Below, piece by piece: positions 22,215 through 64,000 of a DNA stretch of 64,000 bases. The translations under genes were made by a program, and so were the position numbers. The notes below the pieces were generated by a model. The model saw only the letters and a list, made by a program, of their open reading frames with translations, was not told the DNA's origin and did no database searches. Each line of letters begins with the position of its first letter. Position 1 is the stretch's first letter. The stretch comes from Polytrichum commune (taxonomy: Eukaryota; Streptophyta; Polytrichopsida; Polytrichales; Polytrichaceae). The stretch is from NCBI GenBank assembly GCA_950295325.1, contig OX485803.1, forward strand, positions 15,438,001 through 15,502,000, in the 5' to 3' direction.

Positions 22215-22445
22215 TAGTCCATAACACTCATGAAACAATTACACCAAATCGCCATTAAATACCTCACACACCTAATATTAAATAAAAAGAAACTAAACAA
22301 CAAACGCCCCCCCCCCCCCCATAGAACCCTCTTAAACGCAAGGCCCTTCACATATTAAACTAAAGGAGCCCACCCCCTAAACACAAGGGAAGTATCTTAC
22401 CATGACGCTTGACTAAACATGACCATGGTATTGAAGAACGGACTC
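22215..22445 (+). mobile_element. 3' end of a LINE (plus strand)
   Basis: Matches in order the 3' end of the plus-strand LINE at 45040-46466. Shared coding phrases include a short peptide of the type IAIKYLTHLI followed by NKKKLNNK, then a poly-C stretch and a 3' UTR with GAGCCCACC and CTTACCATGA. Only the last 30 or so codons and the UTR remain, so this is a short, 5'-truncated or decayed copy. Confidence 0.7.
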
Positions 22446-43735: not shown

Positions 43736-44172
43736 CAAGAAGAAGAAGAAGAAGAAGAGCTCCGGTCTCCGGAGGAGGCCAGAGTGAATAGAGTGTTTGT
43801 TCGTAGAACATCCTAGGCCATGCCGCGGGCAATGGCATTAGATGTCAAACTACTTCACCCTTTGCAAGGAGTAGACACTATATTTAGTAATTTATAACCG
43901 CTACTAGTAACCGGTAGCATGGCACCACTCTAGGGGCCAAGGTATAGCGGGTTGCAGGTTTATTTGTTTAATTATGTTAAGTTCTGGAGATTTGTGATGG
44001 ATTGTTGGTTCTTTAGTCTTCGTTTATGAACTAGTATTGAGTGTACATATTGTGTGGCGATTATGTTAATTTGTTTAAATGTACTCATGATTTTCATGAT
44101 AGGGAGCTTAAGCATTGATTCTAAGCTTTTCATTGATGGGATGTGTGTTGTGGCCCTTGCTCTTGCGGCTAA

Positions 44173-44699
44173 GGGTGGGTTTAGACTTGGAGTCAGGGCT
44201 CAAAAATGGGTTGGGGTGCAAGAAATCCACTCCTCTCATTGGTAGAGAGGTTGGGACTTACCTCTTCAAGTTTACACCATGAGTTGGGGCCAATTAACAA
44301 ATAAATTATTTTATTCATCATGACAATGGCCTCAAGCCTTGGAAAAGAGAGCTCCCAACCTTGTGGATTCTTTCCCTCTAGTTGAGGCCATTGTTAGAGC
44401 TTTTATTTGCTTGTAGTAGTTTATTATTTGAGCATTGAATAGGAGGGGAGAAATTCTAAATTTATTATACTTTAATCATTATCCATAGAATAGTTCATGA
44501 GTACGTTGGTACGTGGATAAGCCTCTCATAATTGCAACCTCCAAATGGCCCCAACCCCACCTAAATAGGTTTACACATGAAAGCAATGAATGGAGTTAGG
44601 TTATTTTCTTATTAATGACCTTGGGGGCCCATTTGCATGCCACATGGGACATATTGGCCTTCATTCCCAATGGCCTTGGCCCCAAGTCTAAATAGGCCC
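44173..44699. mobile_element. PIF/Harbinger-like MITE, 527 bp, copy 1 (inside the LINE)
   Basis: Inverted ends GGGTGGGTTTAGACTTGGAG and ...CCAAGTCTAAATAGGCCC, flanked by TAA at 44170-44172 and 44700-44702. Nearly identical, in opposite orientation, to 49107-49633, which has exactly the same length of 527 bp. It splits a LINE reading frame, and the homologous LINE at 62205-62938 preserves the empty site. Non-coding. Confidence 0.92.
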
Positions 44700-45039
44700 T
44701 AAGACTATGAGTGGGGCTACGTTCCATCCTTTGCTTATGATGTCATTAATGAGCGGTTGGTATTTTGTGGTTTTCCTATCGAGGGCTTCTGCAGCAAATT
44801 GGTCATTACAATATGTAAATTATATAAATTATATAGTAAGTTCTGGTGCAAGGGTTTTTGGTGGGGGATGGTTGTATAGGTGGTTGATAACACACAATAT
44901 ATCAGGTTTGAGTCTGGCGTTGCAATGGCATCTTTGGGCACCACATGTGCACGGTAGTAGCCATGTTGGCAACGTGTTTTCCCAAGATATTTCATTATGT
45001 GTTCCTGCGTTCATAAGTGTATAGTGTCTTGATATTTTA

Positions 45040-46466
45040 GATCCTAAGAGCATAACTCAATGCAATACTCATAGCCATCAAAAACATAAAAAATACTCAA
45101 ACAGAAACACATATATTTACAGATAATCTTAACAACATATTCTTAATCAACAATCATATACAACATCCCACATCACAACACCATCACCCAAACAAACTAC
45201 TCATAGTGGCCATCATTCGGCAAATATATTGGACCCCACACACAATACACACACACATGCATTATTGGAAATGAAACAACTGACACATTAGCCAATGACG
45301 AAACTCTCAAGGAGAAACCATCCCCCCACACCCCACATACATATAGCACACCCAACCCCATACTAGTTGGCAAGCTGCCCAATAGCCACACATAATGGCG
45401 CCATCCGTAACCTTAGCACATTCATAACAAAGGAACACGAATCCCGAGAAACACTACTAGCCAAATGCAAATTCCCGTATGTCGACAAATGGCTATCAAA
45501 TGAACAAATTAACCAAAAACTCTCTAACCATTTTTGGATAAACGACAAAGTGACAGACGCACAAATCACTCAAACACTAAAATTCAGATATGCCCAATAT
45601 ATGGGCAATAACTAGAAAAACATTTTTTGGCCTCTTACACACCAAAACTCCAATTGCACCCTATGCCACAAAAACAATAGAGACACATGGCCCCACCTCT
45701 TATCAACATGTGAACACCCATACCTAAAAGGACTAAGAATTGCAAGGCACAACATAGCAGTACACCTTATCACCCAAACGCTCCAAGCCAACAAAAACAC
45801 CCGGTACTTCACACTAACCAGTGCAGGGAAATTTAACAACACAACACCAGAACAAACAATCCCCGACTGGCTTATTAAATGCTCATGCCAACAAGCGCCA
45901 TACAATTGCCAAACTAAACTAAGACCAAACATCCTATGCATAATTGGTGCTCCCAACCATATACAAACACCCATGTCACCATCCCCAACACACAATCCAA
46001 TTTATCAAATTCACATACTGTCATGACAGATTCCTGGAACAAGCAATCACCCGAAAACACACGAAATATGACCCATTAATAAACACCATACAAAACAATG
46101 GGTGGAAGACTAACCCCATTATTACCATCACATTTGGAGTTAGAGGTGCCATCCACGAACACTCCATCAAAAAATTAACCAAACTAAAAATTTCTAAATC
46201 CAACATCAAACTCCTTATGAAACATATACATCAAAACGCCATCAAATACCTCACATACCTAGTTCTAAATAAAAGGAAACTAGATAACAAACAAACACCC
46301 ATCCCCCCGCCTTAGAGAGGTTAGATATGCTTAATATTACACTAGAGCCCACCTCCCCACGGAGGCAAAACACCTTATATTGCATCATGGTACACCGTGA
46401 TCAATACAAGGCTAACGGGCTCACATTCATGCTGGTACCAAGATACAGGCGTTATTTTTTCTGTTT
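45040..46466 (+). mobile_element. 5'-truncated LINE, plus strand, inserted in the minus-strand LINE
   Basis: A 1427-bp insertion flanked by a 15-bp target duplication TGTCTTGATATTTTA (45025-45039 and 46467-46481). Decayed coding sequence in order: RNase H remnant (YIFTDNLNNIFL, KVKAHTN-like region lost to stops), WLSNEQINQKLSNHFW with KFRYAQY, zinc knuckle CTLCHKNNRDTWPHLLSTC, then IARHNIAVHLI, KCSCQQAPYNCQTKLRPNIL, IQFIKFTYCHDRF, KYDPLI, FGVRGAIHEHS and KYLTYLVLNKRKLDNK. Frameshifts and stops separate these blocks. Its 3' end lacks the TTC-rich tail of the other LINE, so it belongs to a related but different subfamily, shared with the fragment at 22.2 kb. Confidence 0.9.
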
Positions 46467-47096
46467 TGTCTTGATATTTTAATCGATAAAATGAGTTTAC
46501 GTATTTCCCATACAACTTTATTGTGTCTCTTTGTTATAAGTGCATGGATGTGTTTTTGTTTGCATTTAAGTAGTACATGTAGCCATGTATTTGCATTTGA
46601 TGAGTTGCAGATAGGCATGTTTTTGATGGGTAGGCTTCTATGCTGAAGAAAAGTTGCTTTTTGGCATGACCCATATATTGTTCGGTTCGGAATTTTACTA
46701 GGCATGTTTTTTGTTTATCCGTGATGGTGGGGTTTGCCCAAAAGTCGTTTGATAGTACTTTGGCAATGTCATCGTTCTTGAGCCATTTGTATAGTTGGTG
46801 TGTTTGATTTGCTATGATTGTTAGGTTGTGTCTTGTGTCATATTTAACGATGTGTTTTCAGAGGTATCTAATGGAACCCTTGTCTAGTGTCTCTTGCATG
46901 GAGTGCCATCAGTCTTTTTGGAAGTAGTATGGTGTGGGGGTGTGCATGTTCGTATGATGTTGCGGCGCCTTTGTGGTCTAGTTCACGTCCATGTTTGGCT
47001 AATGCCTCTACTTGTTCGTTGCCGTTGATGTTTGTATGAGCTTTTATTTTGTGGAGTGTGGTGATGTGGGTGCGGGATATTATCATTTTAGTCATA

Positions 47097-48456
47097 AAGT
47101 CTAACCTTGTTAATACGACACTCGTTTATAGGACAACCTCAATATTACGACACATTTTTGCGTGACCAAACTTTTTAGTTCAAAACTCCTTCTTTTATAC
47201 AACTACGACACTTGTTAATACGACATTTAGAAACTCCGTTTTGTAATATTAAAGAGGGAATTAATGCTAAAATTCCTTTCATCCATGTTATGTACATCTA
47301 GAATTCATCCATTTATACTTGGGAACTACTTAAGAACTTCACATATTATTGGGAATTTAATGAGAATTAGGGTTACTAATGTAGAATGGACTTGGTTAGG
47401 GTATCTAAAATCGAAAGGTGATTGTGATTTTGGATAATGCATCTTCACATGTTGTTAGCTCTGCCAAAGTTGGTAAGTCTCGTGGTTTTTCAACCTTGGA
47501 ATTGAGCAACATGACTTTGGTATTCCTTCCTCCCAATGTTACAAGCGTAGTTCAACCTTTGGATCAAGGTATAATAGCATCTTTCAAAATTCAATACAAG
47601 AAGAAACTTTTATGGTGGATTTTGTCACAATATGATGATGTTGCATTGAAGGACTGAAAGAAGGTGGTGCCCAACATCAAACATGTTATCATGGGGAGTT
47701 GTGAAGTATGGAGTGATTGGATGCACAAATAGTTAGGAATTGTAGGAGGATGGCACGTATATTACTTGTAACATGGAATGTTGACTTTGCCCTAGTTGAT
47801 GAAAGGGGGAAGAATAAAATGCAAGAGAATTAGATGAACTTGGTGCTATGATTTCAAAGTTGCGATTGGGTGATGATGAGATGTCAATCGAGACTTACAT
47901 TCACATGGAAGGGGAAGAGATTACTGAGCTAGAATTGAGTACTAATGAGTTTTGGTGGATGTTACTTTGAGAATCAATTATGCACAATGCTTTGATCTTA
48001 ATGTTGATATGCATTCAGTAGATGTGGATGATGTTGCTCCACCTACAATATAGCATAGTGATGCTAAACATCACGCATCATTGTTGTCTAATTTCTTATT
48101 AATCAACTCTTTACATTTTGTTGTTAATGAAATTATTAGTTTTCAAAAGCTAGTAGGGAATTTAGATAAGATGATAGTTGCTAATTTAGATAGGCAACAC
48201 CGGAAATGTTTGAACTCTTATTTCAAGAGTTCTTGAGAGTATTTGTATTTGTTTGGAGTTATGAGTTATTATCTCATACAATCTATATTGCTTAAACTTG
48301 TTGTATATGTCTTTAAGCTCATATTGCTTATGTTTTTGTATTCCCTCGATAGCACGACAATTTTATGCCATTTGTCATATTAACAAGAAGACGACACCCC
48401 GATAATACGACATTTTTTGCGTTTCCCAAATGTGTCATACTAAAGAGGGAGAACAA
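47097..48456 (+). mobile_element. Tigger/pogo-like DNA transposon remnant
   Basis: About 1.36 kb with degenerate inverted ends (left CTAACCTTGTTAATACGACAC, right GTGTCATACTAAAGAGGGAG) and TA on each side (about 47095-47096 and 48457-48458). The frame 47418-47657 reads VILDNASSH ... FLPPNVTSVVQPLDQGIIA, the last part of a DDE (CENP-B/jerky/Tigger type) transposase, with the Asp of LDN visible. Later codons continue weakly as VWSDWM. The N-terminal DNA-binding domains and first catalytic Asp are absent, so it cannot move by itself. The phrase TAATACGACA recurs near both ends. It splits the RNase H domain of the LINE. Confidence 0.85.
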
Positions 48457-49106
48457 TAGCTTCTAGGATGTTTTTGTCTGGGTGACTATTGTGTAGAGTG
48501 GGGTGTTTGATTTGGATTCTTAAGAGGTATAAGACATTGAGGCACTCTGTGAATATATGGGTTGGTTCGTCACGGTATGTTGTGGTGAGTAGGTGTAGGG
48601 TGTGGTATATGGCCATCATTTCCGCTCGTAGTATATTTTGTAGTCTCGGTAGTCTTTTTGCAATTCTTAGGTCTTTGAAAGGATTATAAATACCATATCC
48701 CGCTTTTTCACATTTCCAATGTCCGCTACTTGTCTCTTTAGGTGGTTTGAATGACCCGTTTGTGTAGTAGCAAAATTGTGGTGAATATTTAAGGGATAGG
48801 CATTGTTATGGGTTGATAATCAGTGGGGTATATAGGGGTCCATGATGCAAATAAAGCGTATGACCTTCCTTTCGCAAGATGGGCTCCATTGGAGTAACTA
48901 GCATCAATTCCCGATGCTTAGCATTAGCATATGTGGAGCATATAAAGTGTCGTATCAAACCTATAATCACAAGAAACATGATGTATTGCATGATTTGACA
49001 TGACGCCAATGAACGTGCAACAATGACAATCAATAGGGTATGATGCATGCCAACGATAACAATGGATGCAGTGTGAAAAGTGCCCGTTTAAGGCCCACTT
49101 ACCTTA

Positions 49107-49633
49107 GGGCCTGTTTAGACTTGGGGTCAAGGCCATTGTGAACGAAGGCCAATATGTCCCATGTGGCATGCAAATGGGCCCCCAAGGTCATTAATAAGAA
49201 AGTAACCTAACTTCATTCATTGCTTTCATGTGTAAACCTATTTAGGTGGGGTTGGGGCCATTTGGAGGTTGCAATTATGAGAGGCTTATCCACGTACCAA
49301 CGTACTCATGAACTATTCTATGGATAATGATTAAAGTATAATAAATTTAGAATTTCTCCCCTCCTATTCAATGCTCAAAGAATAAACTACTACAAGCAAA
49401 TAAAAGCTATGACAATGGCCTCAACTAGAGGGAAAGAGTCCACAAGGTTGGGAGCTCTCTTTTCCAAGGCTTGAGGCCATTGTCATAATGAATAAAATAA
49501 TTTATTTGTTAATTGGCCCCAACTCATGGTGTAAACTTGAAGAGGCGAGTCCTAGCCTCTCTACCAATGAGAGGAGTGGAATTCTTTCACCCCAACCCGT
49601 TTTTGAGCCTTGACTCCAAGCCTAAACCGGCCC
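49107..49633. mobile_element. PIF/Harbinger-like MITE, 527 bp, copy 2
   Basis: Inverted ends GGGCCTGTTTAGACTTGGGG and ...CCAAGCCTAAACCGGCCC, flanked by TTA at 49104-49106 and 49634-49636. It is the near-identical, oppositely oriented partner of 44173-44699. It sits just beyond the recognisable 5' end of the LINE, perhaps still within it. Non-coding. Confidence 0.92.
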
Positions 49634-49807
49634 TTAGTAATCTTCAACGAGTGGTGAAAGGACTTGAAAATTAAGCTATTTGGAAAAATTACATGTTCAG
49701 AGCAAGGTACTTCAGGAATCAATACCTACATCCTCGATTTGCTCAAATTGTTCAGCAACCCACACCGATCTCACTTAAAAAATTCATAGCTAGCTATCCA
49801 ACCTATA

Positions 49808-60228: not shown

Positions 60229-60241
60229 AGAATACGAAACA

Positions 60242-60285
60242 AGAAGAAGAAGAAGAAGAAGAAGAAGAACTCCGGTCTCCGGAGA
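60242..60285 (-). mobile_element. 44-bp LINE tail insertion with 13-bp target duplication
   Basis: AGAATACGAAACA occurs at 60229-60241 and 60286-60298. Between them lie only a (GAA)n run and ACTCCGGTCTCCGG. That is exactly the 3' terminus of the minus-strand LINEs at 43736 and 62205. It is an extreme 5'-truncated retrotransposition product. Confidence 0.9.
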
Positions 60286-60298
60286 AGAATACGAAACA

Positions 60299-62189: not shown

Positions 62190-62204
62190 CCGAATACTCT
62201 TTGA

Positions 62205-62938
62205 AGAAGAAGAAGAAGAACTCCGGTCTCTCAGGGGAGGCCGGAGTGAATAGAGTGTCTGTTCGTAAGACATCCTTGGCCATACCCCAGGGTAATGGTT
62301 TTGGATGTAATACTACTTCACCCTTTGCAGGGAGTAGACACTATTTGAGTAACTAGTAGTTTTTTTACCAGTTAGCCGGTAATCATGGACTAGGGAGGGG
62401 GGGGGGGGTGAGTGTGTTGGGTGTGGGATGTATTTTTATATATTGTGTTGAAGGTCGGTGATGGGTTGTTTATTTTCTATTCTCCTTTTATGGATTAGTA
62501 TTGAGTGTGCATATTGTGTGGCGATTATGTTAATTTGTCTAAATGTGTTCTTGATTTGTGATGTAGGGAGTTTAAGTTTTGTCTCCAATTCTGCCATTGA
62601 AGGGATATATGTTGTGGCTCTGGCACCTGATGCTAGTACTATAAGTAGGGCTACGTTCCATCCTTTTTCTTTGATGTTGTTGATGAGTGGTTGATATTTA
62701 TTGATTTTTCTTTCTAGTGATTTTGTGGAGAACCTATCGTTACAGTATGTGAATTCTATGAATTGGACTGTAAGTTCCGGTGTGGGTGCGTCTAGTGGTG
62801 GGGACTTATATGGATGTCCTAGTATACATAATATGTCGGGTTTGAGCCTAGCGTTGCAGTGACATCTTTGGGTGTTACATGTGCATGGAAGTAACCATGA
62901 TGGTACTATGTTTTTCTTGGGGGAGCTCATTATATGTA
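62205..62938 (-). mobile_element. 5'-truncated LINE, minus strand, 15-bp target duplication
   Basis: A 734-bp insertion between CCGAATACTCTTTGA at 62190-62204 and 62939-62953. Its minus-strand frame is open: WLLPCTCNTQRCHCNARLKP then DIL, a spacer, VQFIEFTYCNDRF, KYQPLINNIKEKGW, LASGARATTYIPSM, and NIIATQYAHSILIHKRR. Then comes a 3' UTR ending in GAGACCGGAG and a TTC-rich tail. It is the least damaged copy of the C-terminal domain in the window and keeps the Gln and Glu lost in the 44-kb copy. The first codons of the open frame (62954-63017) belong to host flank. Confidence 0.92.
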
Positions 62939-62953
62939 CCGAATACTCTTTGA

Positions 62954-64000
62954 CATATTCCTGTCCCCAACCATCCTCCATGCATCCTCGGCTAGGTAAT
63001 GATGTGTTGAGGGCCACAAGCTGAGCACCCTTGCCACTATTGTCGACATCTTAGTTCAAGCTGGGATTTGGTAGAACTCCCTAAAATTTTGTACTATTCA
63101 TCTTCCCGGACTCTAAATCAATTCCATTTCATTTCATTGGTCATCTTGAGACAAGGAGCCAACCATGATAAGTGCTAAAGTGGTTGTCCTCATCCAAGGA
63201 GATGAAAAAACACTTACTAACGAGAATACGTGAGTGCCATGAATCCTTGGCTGAAAAAAACAACACCTCTTTCTTATGTATATTATGTACGCTAGTGCCT
63301 CAAATATTACCCCAATCTACACTACGTTAGTTCGTACATGGTATGAAGAGTCCCCCCAAAGTGGGTCTTAGAGCCCTTCTTAGGGGTTTAGGCGAGATTA
63401 CTAGATGGGAAGCAACAAGCAAATCATGACTGTTAGCAAATGAAGCTCCAACCCACCCCCCCAAGGCTCTCGTCTCTGATTTTGGGGCCTCATTGAAAGA
63501 TTGAGAAAGAGTCTCAATTGCATCCTGTAGATAAATAAAGCTCCCTGCCCAGATTTATCTCTTTCAAATCAACTGGAGAGGCGGGGTCGCATTATTTGAA
63601 TGGGTTGCTGTGGCAATCGGCTCATGCCATCCACCCAAACATAACTCGATGTGTTTGATGGTGTCTTAGTCTTCGGTTCATGTAACCATGTTAATCACAT
63701 GGAAGAAGTGTCACTTGTAAGTTATGTGAACTTGAACCGACGACTGCATCTTTCAGTAACAGTAGGGAGTATGACTTTCAAGTGGATTAGTTGCTGCAAC
63801 ACTTAGATGCTTGAGAATGCAAGGCAGTTGTCAAGTAGATAAGTTACTGGAACACTTGGACGTTTGAGCATGGAAAATGACTGTTAAGTGGGTTAGTTAG
63901 GGTCTTGAGATTTTTGTACGCCAAATGCTAGAGAAAGATCACAATTAGATTGCTCAATCAAGTCACATCAATACACCGAGTTGATGCAATGTTATAGAAA
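62954..64000. other. Intergenic, no gene recognised
   Basis: No transposon ends, RNA genes or convincing coding regions. Short phrases around 63780-63900 (AAGTGGATTAGTTGCTGCAA and related) suggest a small degenerate tandem repeat. Confidence 0.45.

Follow-up and report, generated by a model that had tools for sequence, protein, structure and literature searches.

A probable Dualen/RandI-type LINE with two endonucleases and a PCIF1-like domain in the moss Polytrichum commune

The LINE content of the window, i.e., the whole 64-kb stretch of Polytrichum commune DNA that was analysed, consists of decayed 3′ ends from two related non-LTR families (I and II), which are about 43% identical. What had been described as a minus-strand copy at 44–49 kb is a single family I insertion that runs from about 48,829 down to about 43,743 and is split by three interruptions: a stretch at 47,104–48,451 that contains a DDE_1 transposase frame, a plus-strand family II LINE at 45,040–46,466, and a MITE-like repeat at 44,173–44,698. 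Read along the minus strand, the first segment of this insertion (48,452–48,829) holds the decayed start of the RNase H region, which was matched by tblastn at 76% over 126 aa to residues 1663–1788 of the ORF of the long copy L013, by blastn at 48,803–48,452, and by the Pfam RNase_H model at an E-value of 0.0043, below its cut-off. The second segment (46,467–47,104) carries the end of RNase H, the linker and the CCHC finger (tblastn to residues 1784–1995 in three pieces; blastn at 47,103–46,444). The first half of the restriction-like endonuclease (RLE), with CxC..CxC, LKPDIL, KYQPLI and two internal stops, lies in the third (44,699–45,044) and the end of the RLE (ARATTHIPSM...) in the fourth (43,981–44,172), followed by the 3′ end of the copy with its hairpin and (CTT)n tail (43,736–43,890).

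The nested family II copy (45,040–46,466, plus strand) is 5′-truncated. Its DNA is 86% identical to that of L043, another copy of family II, its protein 36–43% identical to the L013 ORF of family I, and it no longer has all catalytic residues (RPN for RPD, FIKFT for FIEFT). It is flanked by the 15-bp duplication TAAAATATCAAGACA (minus strand) at 45,025–45,039 and 46,467–46,481. The least decayed copy is another 5′-truncated member of family I (62,205–62,938, minus strand) with an open RLE frame (62,439–63,050), whose 204 aa include CxC..CxC, LKPDIL, FIEFTYC, KYQPLI, GW and GARATTY; its target-site duplication TCAAAGAGTATTCGG is found at 62,939–62,953 (minus strand) and again at 62,190–62,204. 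A minimal family I insertion (60,241–60,285, minus strand), reduced to just the 3′ hairpin end and (TTC)n, sits between two copies of the 12-bp duplication GTTTCGTATTCT (60,286–60,297 and 60,229–60,240), and a 94-bp family II fragment of 78% identity lies on the plus strand at 22,227–22,320. A sequence-only reading of this DNA had taken three fragments with shared motifs for three copies of one element. The fragments are real, and their pattern goes well past what chance would give: at E ≤ 4e-69, a 151-aa query matches at least 150 genomic places (150 of 150 scored); the copies at 44–49 kb and 62.2–62.9 kb do belong together in family I, whereas the plus-strand copy comes from the divergent family II. 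No APE or RT (reverse transcriptase) part was detected in the window by tblastn with the L013 ORF; both are present in copies elsewhere in the genome.

Insertions of the element show 5′ truncation, duplicated target DNA of 12–16 bp and, at the 3′ end, a hairpin and a tail of short repeats; their target sites differ. The hairpin and tail were present at the 3′ ends of all seven family I copies that were read. In all, 33 3′ ends were collected, which after removal of three same-place repeats left 30 distinct ends in 30 different flanks, with no single rDNA target site. An exact flanking repeat of at least 10 bp was found at 6 of these ends and one of at least 12 bp at 4, compared with 12 and 0, respectively, of 254 control words taken 60–380 bp further downstream. 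The two 10-bp cases may be due to chance, since the control also reaches this length, and were not counted as evidence. Most of the remaining ends have their 5′ end beyond the stretch examined and are therefore uninformative on duplications. A tRNA-like 3′ UTR was also considered and rejected, ARAGORN having found no tRNA gene in 11 loci.

For each family, 150 or more of the genomic places scored are matches, and the longest open frames of some copies reach 2,000–2,900 aa. Ten long copies from both families (among them L013, L015, L016, L019, L021, L041, L042 and L043) were examined, and gave the order of the parts along the frame: a leader with 2A/StopGo motifs, an N-terminal domain of unknown kind, APE, RT, a chromodomain-like module, a PCIF1-like domain, RNase H, a CCHC finger and an R2-type RLE. 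APE, RT, RNase H and PCIF1_WW were found by Pfam in L013, L021, L041 and L042, with PCIF1_WW below the cut-off in the latter two and RNase H at E-values of 8.3e-15, 2e-16, 1.3e-14 and 1.5e-14 in the four long ORFs. The APE residues TWN, QETK, GDFN and SDH are intact in all seven copies whose longest frame covers this domain, and the residues of RT, RNase H and RLE, together with the CCHC finger, are kept in all ten. The sequence-only reading had thus seen part of the element correctly (RNase H, zinc knuckle and RLE) and had missed the 2A-like, chromodomain-like and PCIF1-like parts, which lie outside the window. Diverged pairs of copies gave a dN/dS of 0.03–0.19 everywhere it could be computed. 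The near-identical pair L013/L016 gave 0.52 (RT) and 0.43 (linker) from very few changes, and was set aside because its dS is only 0.02.

The PCIF1-like domain is under purifying selection, with a dN/dS of 0.08–0.18 in each family, near the 0.07–0.12 of the RLE. The Pfam model PF12237 matched it with E-values of 1.6e-9 and 2.8e-12 in family I and of 4.7e-6 and 3e-6, below the cut-off, in family II; at least 150 genomic places pass the cut-off (150 of 150 scored). A host PCIF1 gene was considered as the source of these matches; the best 2 of the 150, the ones traced individually, are copies of the element. In PCIF1/CAPAM, the cap-specific m6Am methyltransferase, NPPF is the catalytic motif, and the protein also has a WW domain. 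The element shares with it part of the methyltransferase region, in which SPxxC and FGSxG are both kept in ten of ten copies, and differs in that NPPF is found in none of the ten, being replaced by HPHT, HPHN, HPPN or FPTD, that no WW domain was matched by Pfam at E ≤ 1 in four long ORFs and two upstream frames, and that the long part preceding this stretch in PCIF1 seemingly has no counterpart, as judged from a non-significant first segment (−1.7 bits). The missing motif, the modest PDB E-values (5e-4 and 0.05) and the subthreshold family II scores would all fit a domain that plays no part in the handling of capped RNA, whether as a vestige or as an unrelated fold of the Rossmann-like kind. 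This explanation is doubtful, though it carries some weight: against it stand the selection in both families, a peak of between-family conservation at this domain relative to its neighbours, the two retained stretches, and the fact that PCIF1 was the sole PDB match of the domain profile among 177,635 sequences. Because NPPF is lost while FGSxG is kept, the probable role of the domain is to bind the RNA of the element itself at its capped 5′ end, and not that of a standard m6Am enzyme. A more elaborate idea, which we regard as tentative and well short of an even chance, is that a captured and re-tooled PCIF1-type cap-adenosine module reads or marks this capped end and so favours full-length transcripts, in an element that also uses a plant StopGo and two endonucleases cutting the two target strands. 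The m6Am enzyme of plants is called unknown in the portion of the literature available (PMC9100520).

The 2A/StopGo motifs lie upstream of the replicase in all ten copies of the two families, with up to three in tandem, and mostly have a YYTWNNSTLILLxGDI-like part in front of them. They resemble the 2A/StopGo sequences of APE-type LINEs and RNA viruses in having GD(I/V)xxNPGP and an upstream hydrophobic stretch before the replicase, and differ in the plant genome that hosts them, in the H, K or Q at p14 of some, and in their tandem arrangement of up to three. The exact D(V/I)ExNPGP is present in six of the ten copies; in the motif nearest the replicase, H or K replaces E in several copies, p14 being H in L015 and L042 and K in L019 and L043. 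In the excerpted text of a 2A study, H at p14 is more than 95% active (PMC12846837), and no report of K at this position was found in the partly accessible literature. That the motifs belong to an untranslated leader and are inactive is unlikely, even though the leader is poorly conserved and of low complexity, five of the ten copies have a broken frame from 2A to RT (unbroken in the other five), and K occupies p14 in two; the recurrence of the motif, its upstream part and the exact matches, along with the reported activity of H, argue for StopGo activity, which we infer from the sequences. Further along the frame, the module downstream of RT can at most be called chromodomain-like, and weakly so: Pfam gave E-values of 0.001–0.13 in three of four sequences, with a best score of 19.4 bits against a curated cut-off of 25.1, and 8 of 11 PDB matches were chromodomains, the best at E 0.037.

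The nature of the C-terminal region, in which PD followed by ExT had been likened to the core of restriction-like endonucleases, was followed by the profile search that had been suggested for it. Aligned with hhalign to the R2 endonuclease, it gave an E-value of 3.9e-5 over 142 columns, which extend from the CCHC finger through RHN, KPD, (D/E)xT, KxxKY and GxR, and a score of 38.3, while the best of 60 column-shuffled controls reached 21.2. PD, the E of FIEFT and the K of KxxKY are kept in ten of ten long copies. Against the PDB, the profile of families I and II together found R2 as its sole match, a weak one (E 1.1); a family I-only profile found no match there and gave just E 0.004 against R2. 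AlphaFold2, applied to the RLE copy and fragments of the window, returned a poor model (pLDDT 50). Nothing matched it at E ≤ 0.001 in Foldseek or at Z ≥ 5 in VIA-align, and the 50 matches listed by each included no R2 or restriction-enzyme entry. The likeness noticed earlier is thus borne out at the level of profiles, which support homology of the region with the R2 RLE.

The RT was placed in a tree with eight of the ten long copies, L041 (gap in RT) and L016 (a near-copy of L013) being left out. The copies form a clade with support 100, outside both the clade of human L1 and four L1 of the same genome (support 90) and the R2 clade, which is monophyletic at support 100, while the branching order of element, L1 and R2 received AU p-values of 0.30–0.65 across arrangements. 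The tree, a test suggested with the sequence-only reading, indicates that the element RT is a lineage of its own, neither L1 nor R2. An RLE-only element of the R2/R4/NeSL/HERO type that gained its APE separately and is unrelated to Dualen is improbable: R2 is the best PDB match of the RT, two R2 sequences scored highest with its profile (101–110 bits versus 69 for L1) and a grouping with R2 is not rejected by the AU test (p 0.44), but the Bombyx R2 scores like L1 (66–70), the R2 clade, which stands for the RLE types in the tree, closes without the element, and the 30 distinct 3′ ends lie in as many different flanks. An ordinary plant L1-type LINE whose C-terminus is merely zinc-binding and resembles an endonuclease by chance could account for the APE, for RNase H, which is known from plant L1 elements in the accessible parts of two reports (PMC5348765, PMC4640811), and for the C-terminal model that matched nothing, and is nonetheless very improbable given an RT outside the L1 clade, an end-to-end alignment with the R2 endonuclease well above shuffles, and catalytic residues conserved throughout. 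We put at roughly 83% the probability that the element is a Dualen/RandI-type dual-endonuclease LINE in a moss, a likeness of architecture, its RT having been compared with those of L1 and R2. The earlier remark that RNase H plus RLE recalls Dualen was right in architecture, since an APE also lies upstream of the RT.

For such a Dualen/RandI-type element, the following cycle can be proposed. The mRNA would be translated, with StopGo separating the replicase from the leader, while the PCIF1-like domain probably holds the capped end. The replicase would recognise the hairpin and short-repeat tail at the 3′ end of its own RNA, and the chromodomain-like module may tether it to chromatin. One endonuclease would then nick the chromatin DNA, and the resulting 3′ end would prime reverse transcription, aided by its matching the tail in at least one base; the second endonuclease probably cuts the other strand 12–16 bp away, a division of work between APE and RLE that we infer. 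RNase H would remove the RNA template.

Dualen/RandI elements, known from Chlamydomonas and relatives and annotated in cryptophytes, likewise combine APE and PD-(D/E)XK endonucleases with an RT between them and RNase H. Their RT is placed between the RLE-type and APE-type groups, and the RT of the present element stands apart from R2 and L1. They differ from the present element in its land-plant host, in its 2A, chromodomain-like and PCIF1-like parts, and in that no peptidase was matched by Pfam at E ≤ 1 among the scanned proteins, a search that a divergent one could escape; the Chlamydomonas Dualen, as described in 2005, reportedly carries a cysteine protease. R2 shares the CCHC finger, the RHN motif and the C-terminal RLE, but has one rDNA site where the element has dispersed ones and is without the APE, RNase H and captured domains. 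Plant L1 LINEs with RNase H share APE, RT and RNase H; the element carries an RLE in addition, and its RT is of another lineage. The methyltransferase-bearing retrotransposons (DNMT LINEs of Symbiodinium, DIRS), as far as the text available describes them (PMC5890265), also combine capture of a methyltransferase with purifying selection, theirs being DNMT or Dam-like, whereas the RT-bearing protein of the present element contains a domain related to PCIF1-type RNA-cap enzymes. The combination of two endonucleases with 2A, chromodomain-like and PCIF1-like parts was not found described in the literature searched, and three profiles (RLE, RT and PCIF1-like) led to no confirmed relatives among IMG/VR viral contigs. 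Dual-endonuclease LINEs, which the partly available literature reports from cryptophytes as well as green algae, have been interpreted as intermediate stages in an RLE-to-APE switch (PMC4640811, in the portion available). In a land plant with abundant copies, some of which retain long unbroken frames, one could test how the nucleases share their work; LINE replication would be tied to the mRNA cap by a PCIF1-type domain in a retroelement; and a natural StopGo in a plant would contrast with its absence from plant viruses, as reported in the same excerpted 2A study (PMC12846837). The short-repeat 3′ tails of the element have a parallel as well, such tails being tabulated, in the part of the source available, for SINEs paired with RandI (PMC3747384).

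The flagged region of the window (43736-49050) holds decayed LINE 3′ ends. Compared with full copies by blastn and tblastn, the minus-strand fragment at 44-49 kb is a single family I insertion with three interruptions, i.e., a stretch at 47104-48451 with a DDE_1 transposase frame (47409-47654, plus strand, E 9.5e-14) that is presumably pogo/Tigger-like, a plus-strand family II LINE that is nested and has a 15-bp target duplication, and a MITE-like repeat at 44173-44698. The fragment at 62 kb, a family I copy truncated at its 5′ end, is flanked by a duplication of 15 bp. The sequence-only reading had taken all three fragments as copies of one element; this holds for the two on the minus strand, whereas the plus-strand copy belongs to family II. 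The MITE-like repeat, of about 530 bp and with the end GGGCCTATTTAGACTTGGGG, recurs at 49103-49637 in opposite orientation with 96% identity, and one of its two copies sits within the LINE.

Beyond the window, the analysis gave a larger result: as far as its sequence tells, the element is a dual-endonuclease LINE of modular build that has captured parts resembling a cap enzyme and a chromatin reader, and its host is a plant. The window occupies C1:15,438,001-15,502,000 in a genome of 408 Mb, of which seven contigs of 42-78 Mb account for 406 Mb. Plastid psaA/psaB are present on contig C8, one locus of the land-plant family MIR166 exceeds the Rfam cut-off, and PsaB has 8htu, 6l35/7xqp and 7ksq/7kux as its top three PDB matches (1701-1705 bits, then 1667), 7ksq being a moss PSI-LHCI. 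The host is concluded to be a moss, and seven chromosomes would agree with Polytrichopsida. Ten long copies from this genome were examined, with frames of up to 2,924 aa. The family I RLE query gave at least 150 matches (all 150 scored; ~4,421 candidates, a rough number) and the family II query likewise at least 150 (150 of 150 scored; ~4,509 candidates, equally rough), both counts being lower bounds from lists that may overlap at their weak ends. The long copies, at loci with L0xx handles, are L013, L014, L015, L016, L019 (A), L021 with L022 (B) and L023 with L024 (C) in family I, and L041, L042 and L043 in family II. Identity is 57-98% within family I, 70-72% within family II and 41-45% between the two. 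The longest open frames reach 2,924 aa (L019), 2,919 (L021) and 2,625 (L023) in family I, and 2,422 aa (L041), 2,372 (L042) and 2,305 (L043) in family II; in L013-L016, stops or frameshifts break up the frame.

In L013 (family I), Pfam found Exo_endo_phos_2 (residues 162-290, E 5e-7), RVT_1 (659-925, E 2.5e-26), PCIF1_WW (1410-1525, E 1.6e-9) and RNase_H (1681-1823, E 8e-15). L021, L041 and L042 again gave RT and RNase H, together with an APE family and with PCIF1_WW at E 2.8e-12, 4.7e-6 and 3e-6, the latter two (family II) below the Pfam cut-off. The catalytic residues are intact in all ten copies for the RT (YADD), RNase H and RLE (PD/E/K), and in 7/7 copies whose longest frame spans the APE; we infer the corresponding activities. 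Upstream of the replicase, every one of the ten copies carries at least one GD(I/V)xxNPGP motif of 2A/StopGo type (up to three in L013), and in five (L019, L021, L023, L041, L042) 2A and RT share a single unbroken frame. The exact D(V/I)ExNPGP occurs in six of ten (L021, L023, L013, L014, L016, L041); p14 is H in L015 and L042, and K in L019 and L043. Histidine at this position is reported to be >95% active and E14Q partly active in PMC12846837, the consulted text of which does not mention lysine and states that no StopGo was found in plant viruses. The ~250 aa between 2A and APE, scanned in two copies, had no Pfam match. The leader in the upstream frames of L013-L016 is of low complexity and T/H/N/P-rich, with repeated modules ASAYRPRH... 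and YYTWNNSTLILL-GDIxxNPGP.

The C-terminal domain had been proposed to be a restriction-like endonuclease, and this was borne out by profile comparison with R2 (PDB chains 8gh6, 9nl2, 9nl3). With families I and II combined, hhalign to the R2 endonuclease gave a probability of 70.6%, E 3.9e-5, over 142 columns. Its score was 38.3, whereas 60 column shuffles reached at most 21.2 and seven decoy profiles, taken from other parts of this protein, 11-15. The frame CxxC..H..C, RHN, KPD, (D/E)xT, KxxKY, GxR is common to both, and homology is shown at the level of sequence. In hmmsearch of the PDB, R2 was the only match of this combined profile (E 1.1); a profile from family I alone had no match there, and gave E 0.004 against the R2 endonuclease versus 0.4 for reversed controls. 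The predicted RLE structure was of too low quality for use.

The RT profile matched R2 proteins in the PDB at 110 to 66 bits and 8c8j, which we take to be human L1, at 69 bits. In a tree of eight element copies, three R2 sequences, L1 (8c8j and four of this genome) and three group II introns, the element copies form one clade (support 100), outside both the R2 clade (100) and the L1 clade, which closes at 90 without them. AU tests did not distinguish the pairings (p 0.44 with R2, 0.65 with L1, 0.30 outside both). A separate L1 lineage in the same genome has frames of up to 1,229 aa at four loci (L045-L048) and up to 1,845 aa among other matches listed. The RT of Dualen, the dual-endonuclease LINE type, falls midway between the RLE-type and APE-type groups. 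The suspected likeness to Dualen holds in architecture, i.e., two endonucleases. The placement of Dualen serves in PMC4640811 as an argument that APE elements originated through replacement of the RLE; PMC8226300 describes Dualen in relatives of Chlamydomonas, and PMC12747079 has it annotated in cryptophytes. In those parts of the literature consulted on Dualen/RandI, plant RLE with RNase H, PCIF1 in retrotransposons, 2A in non-LTR elements, chromodomains in non-LTR or RLE elements, and moss LINEs, the combination was not found; precedents are LINEs capturing DNMT (PMC5890265) and LTR elements capturing a chromodomain (PMC5348765), and Physcomitrium LINE-1 and LINE-2 are mentioned in PMC7466625 in text free of domain detail.

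At E <= 10, the PCIF1-like profile (eight copies) had only two PDB matches; each is PCIF1 (E 5e-4 and 0.05), and a family I-only profile matched PCIF1 at E 0.0016 and 0.004. All 150 scored PCIF1_WW genome matches were above the Pfam cut-off, the best two of these 150 being element copies. In PCIF1, the cap m6Am methyltransferase, NPPF is essential and FGSxG contacts SAM. The element domain keeps the FGSxG and SPxxC stretches in 10/10 copies, and has HPHT, HPHN, HPPN or FPTD at the position aligned to NPPF. Between diverged copies, dN/dS was 0.08-0.18 for this domain, 0.03-0.07 for RT (saturated for L042 vs L043) and 0.07-0.12 for RLE, the APE not being computable for three pairs. The low dN/dS together with the replaced NPPF suggests that the domain is retained for some role, which is probably not standard m6Am transfer. 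Between RT and this domain lies a YLCQW...W...L module that matched Pfam Chromo in three of four sequences (E 0.001, 0.011, 0.13) and only an unrelated family in the fourth (E 0.025); chromodomains (CDYL, CDYL2, CBX4) made up 8 of 11 PDB matches of its seven-row profile (best E 0.037). Since these values are below curated cut-offs, the module is named chromodomain-like.

The family I 3′ end is a hairpin, CTCCGGTCCCTAGTAGGGACCGGAG and variants, with both-sided changes at two base pairs among seven sequences. It is followed by (TTC)n in L013-L016, and in the subfamilies of L019, L021 (L021-L022) and L023 the same hairpin type precedes a CTAT/ATCT repeat; L011 is without the hairpin. Family II (L041-L043) has a different hairpin at its end (GCCGGTAT..ATACCGGC in L041), then a T-rich, C-containing tail. 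In all the copies named here except L011, the tail repeat varies by subfamily and comes after the hairpin. Stretches such as AATCGAACCCGG and CAACCAACC in the 3′ UTR of L013, L019, L021 and L023 recall reversed tRNA; ARAGORN found no tRNA in these four UTRs. The 30 distinct 3′ ends have 30 different flanks and hence no single target site. Of 30 family I ends whose tail is of the (TTC)n type, 4 are flanked by exact duplications (12, 12, 15 and 16 bp), versus none of 254 control words, and two further repeats of 10 bp may be chance; all six start with at least one tail base, which is what annealing to the tail predicts. The window adds duplications of 15 bp, at the nested insertion, and of 12 bp, at a small insertion of ~45 bp (60,241-60,285). 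The latter holds only the last part of the LINE 3′ hairpin and a (TTC)n tail between perfect duplications, as expected if target-primed reverse transcription halted at once.
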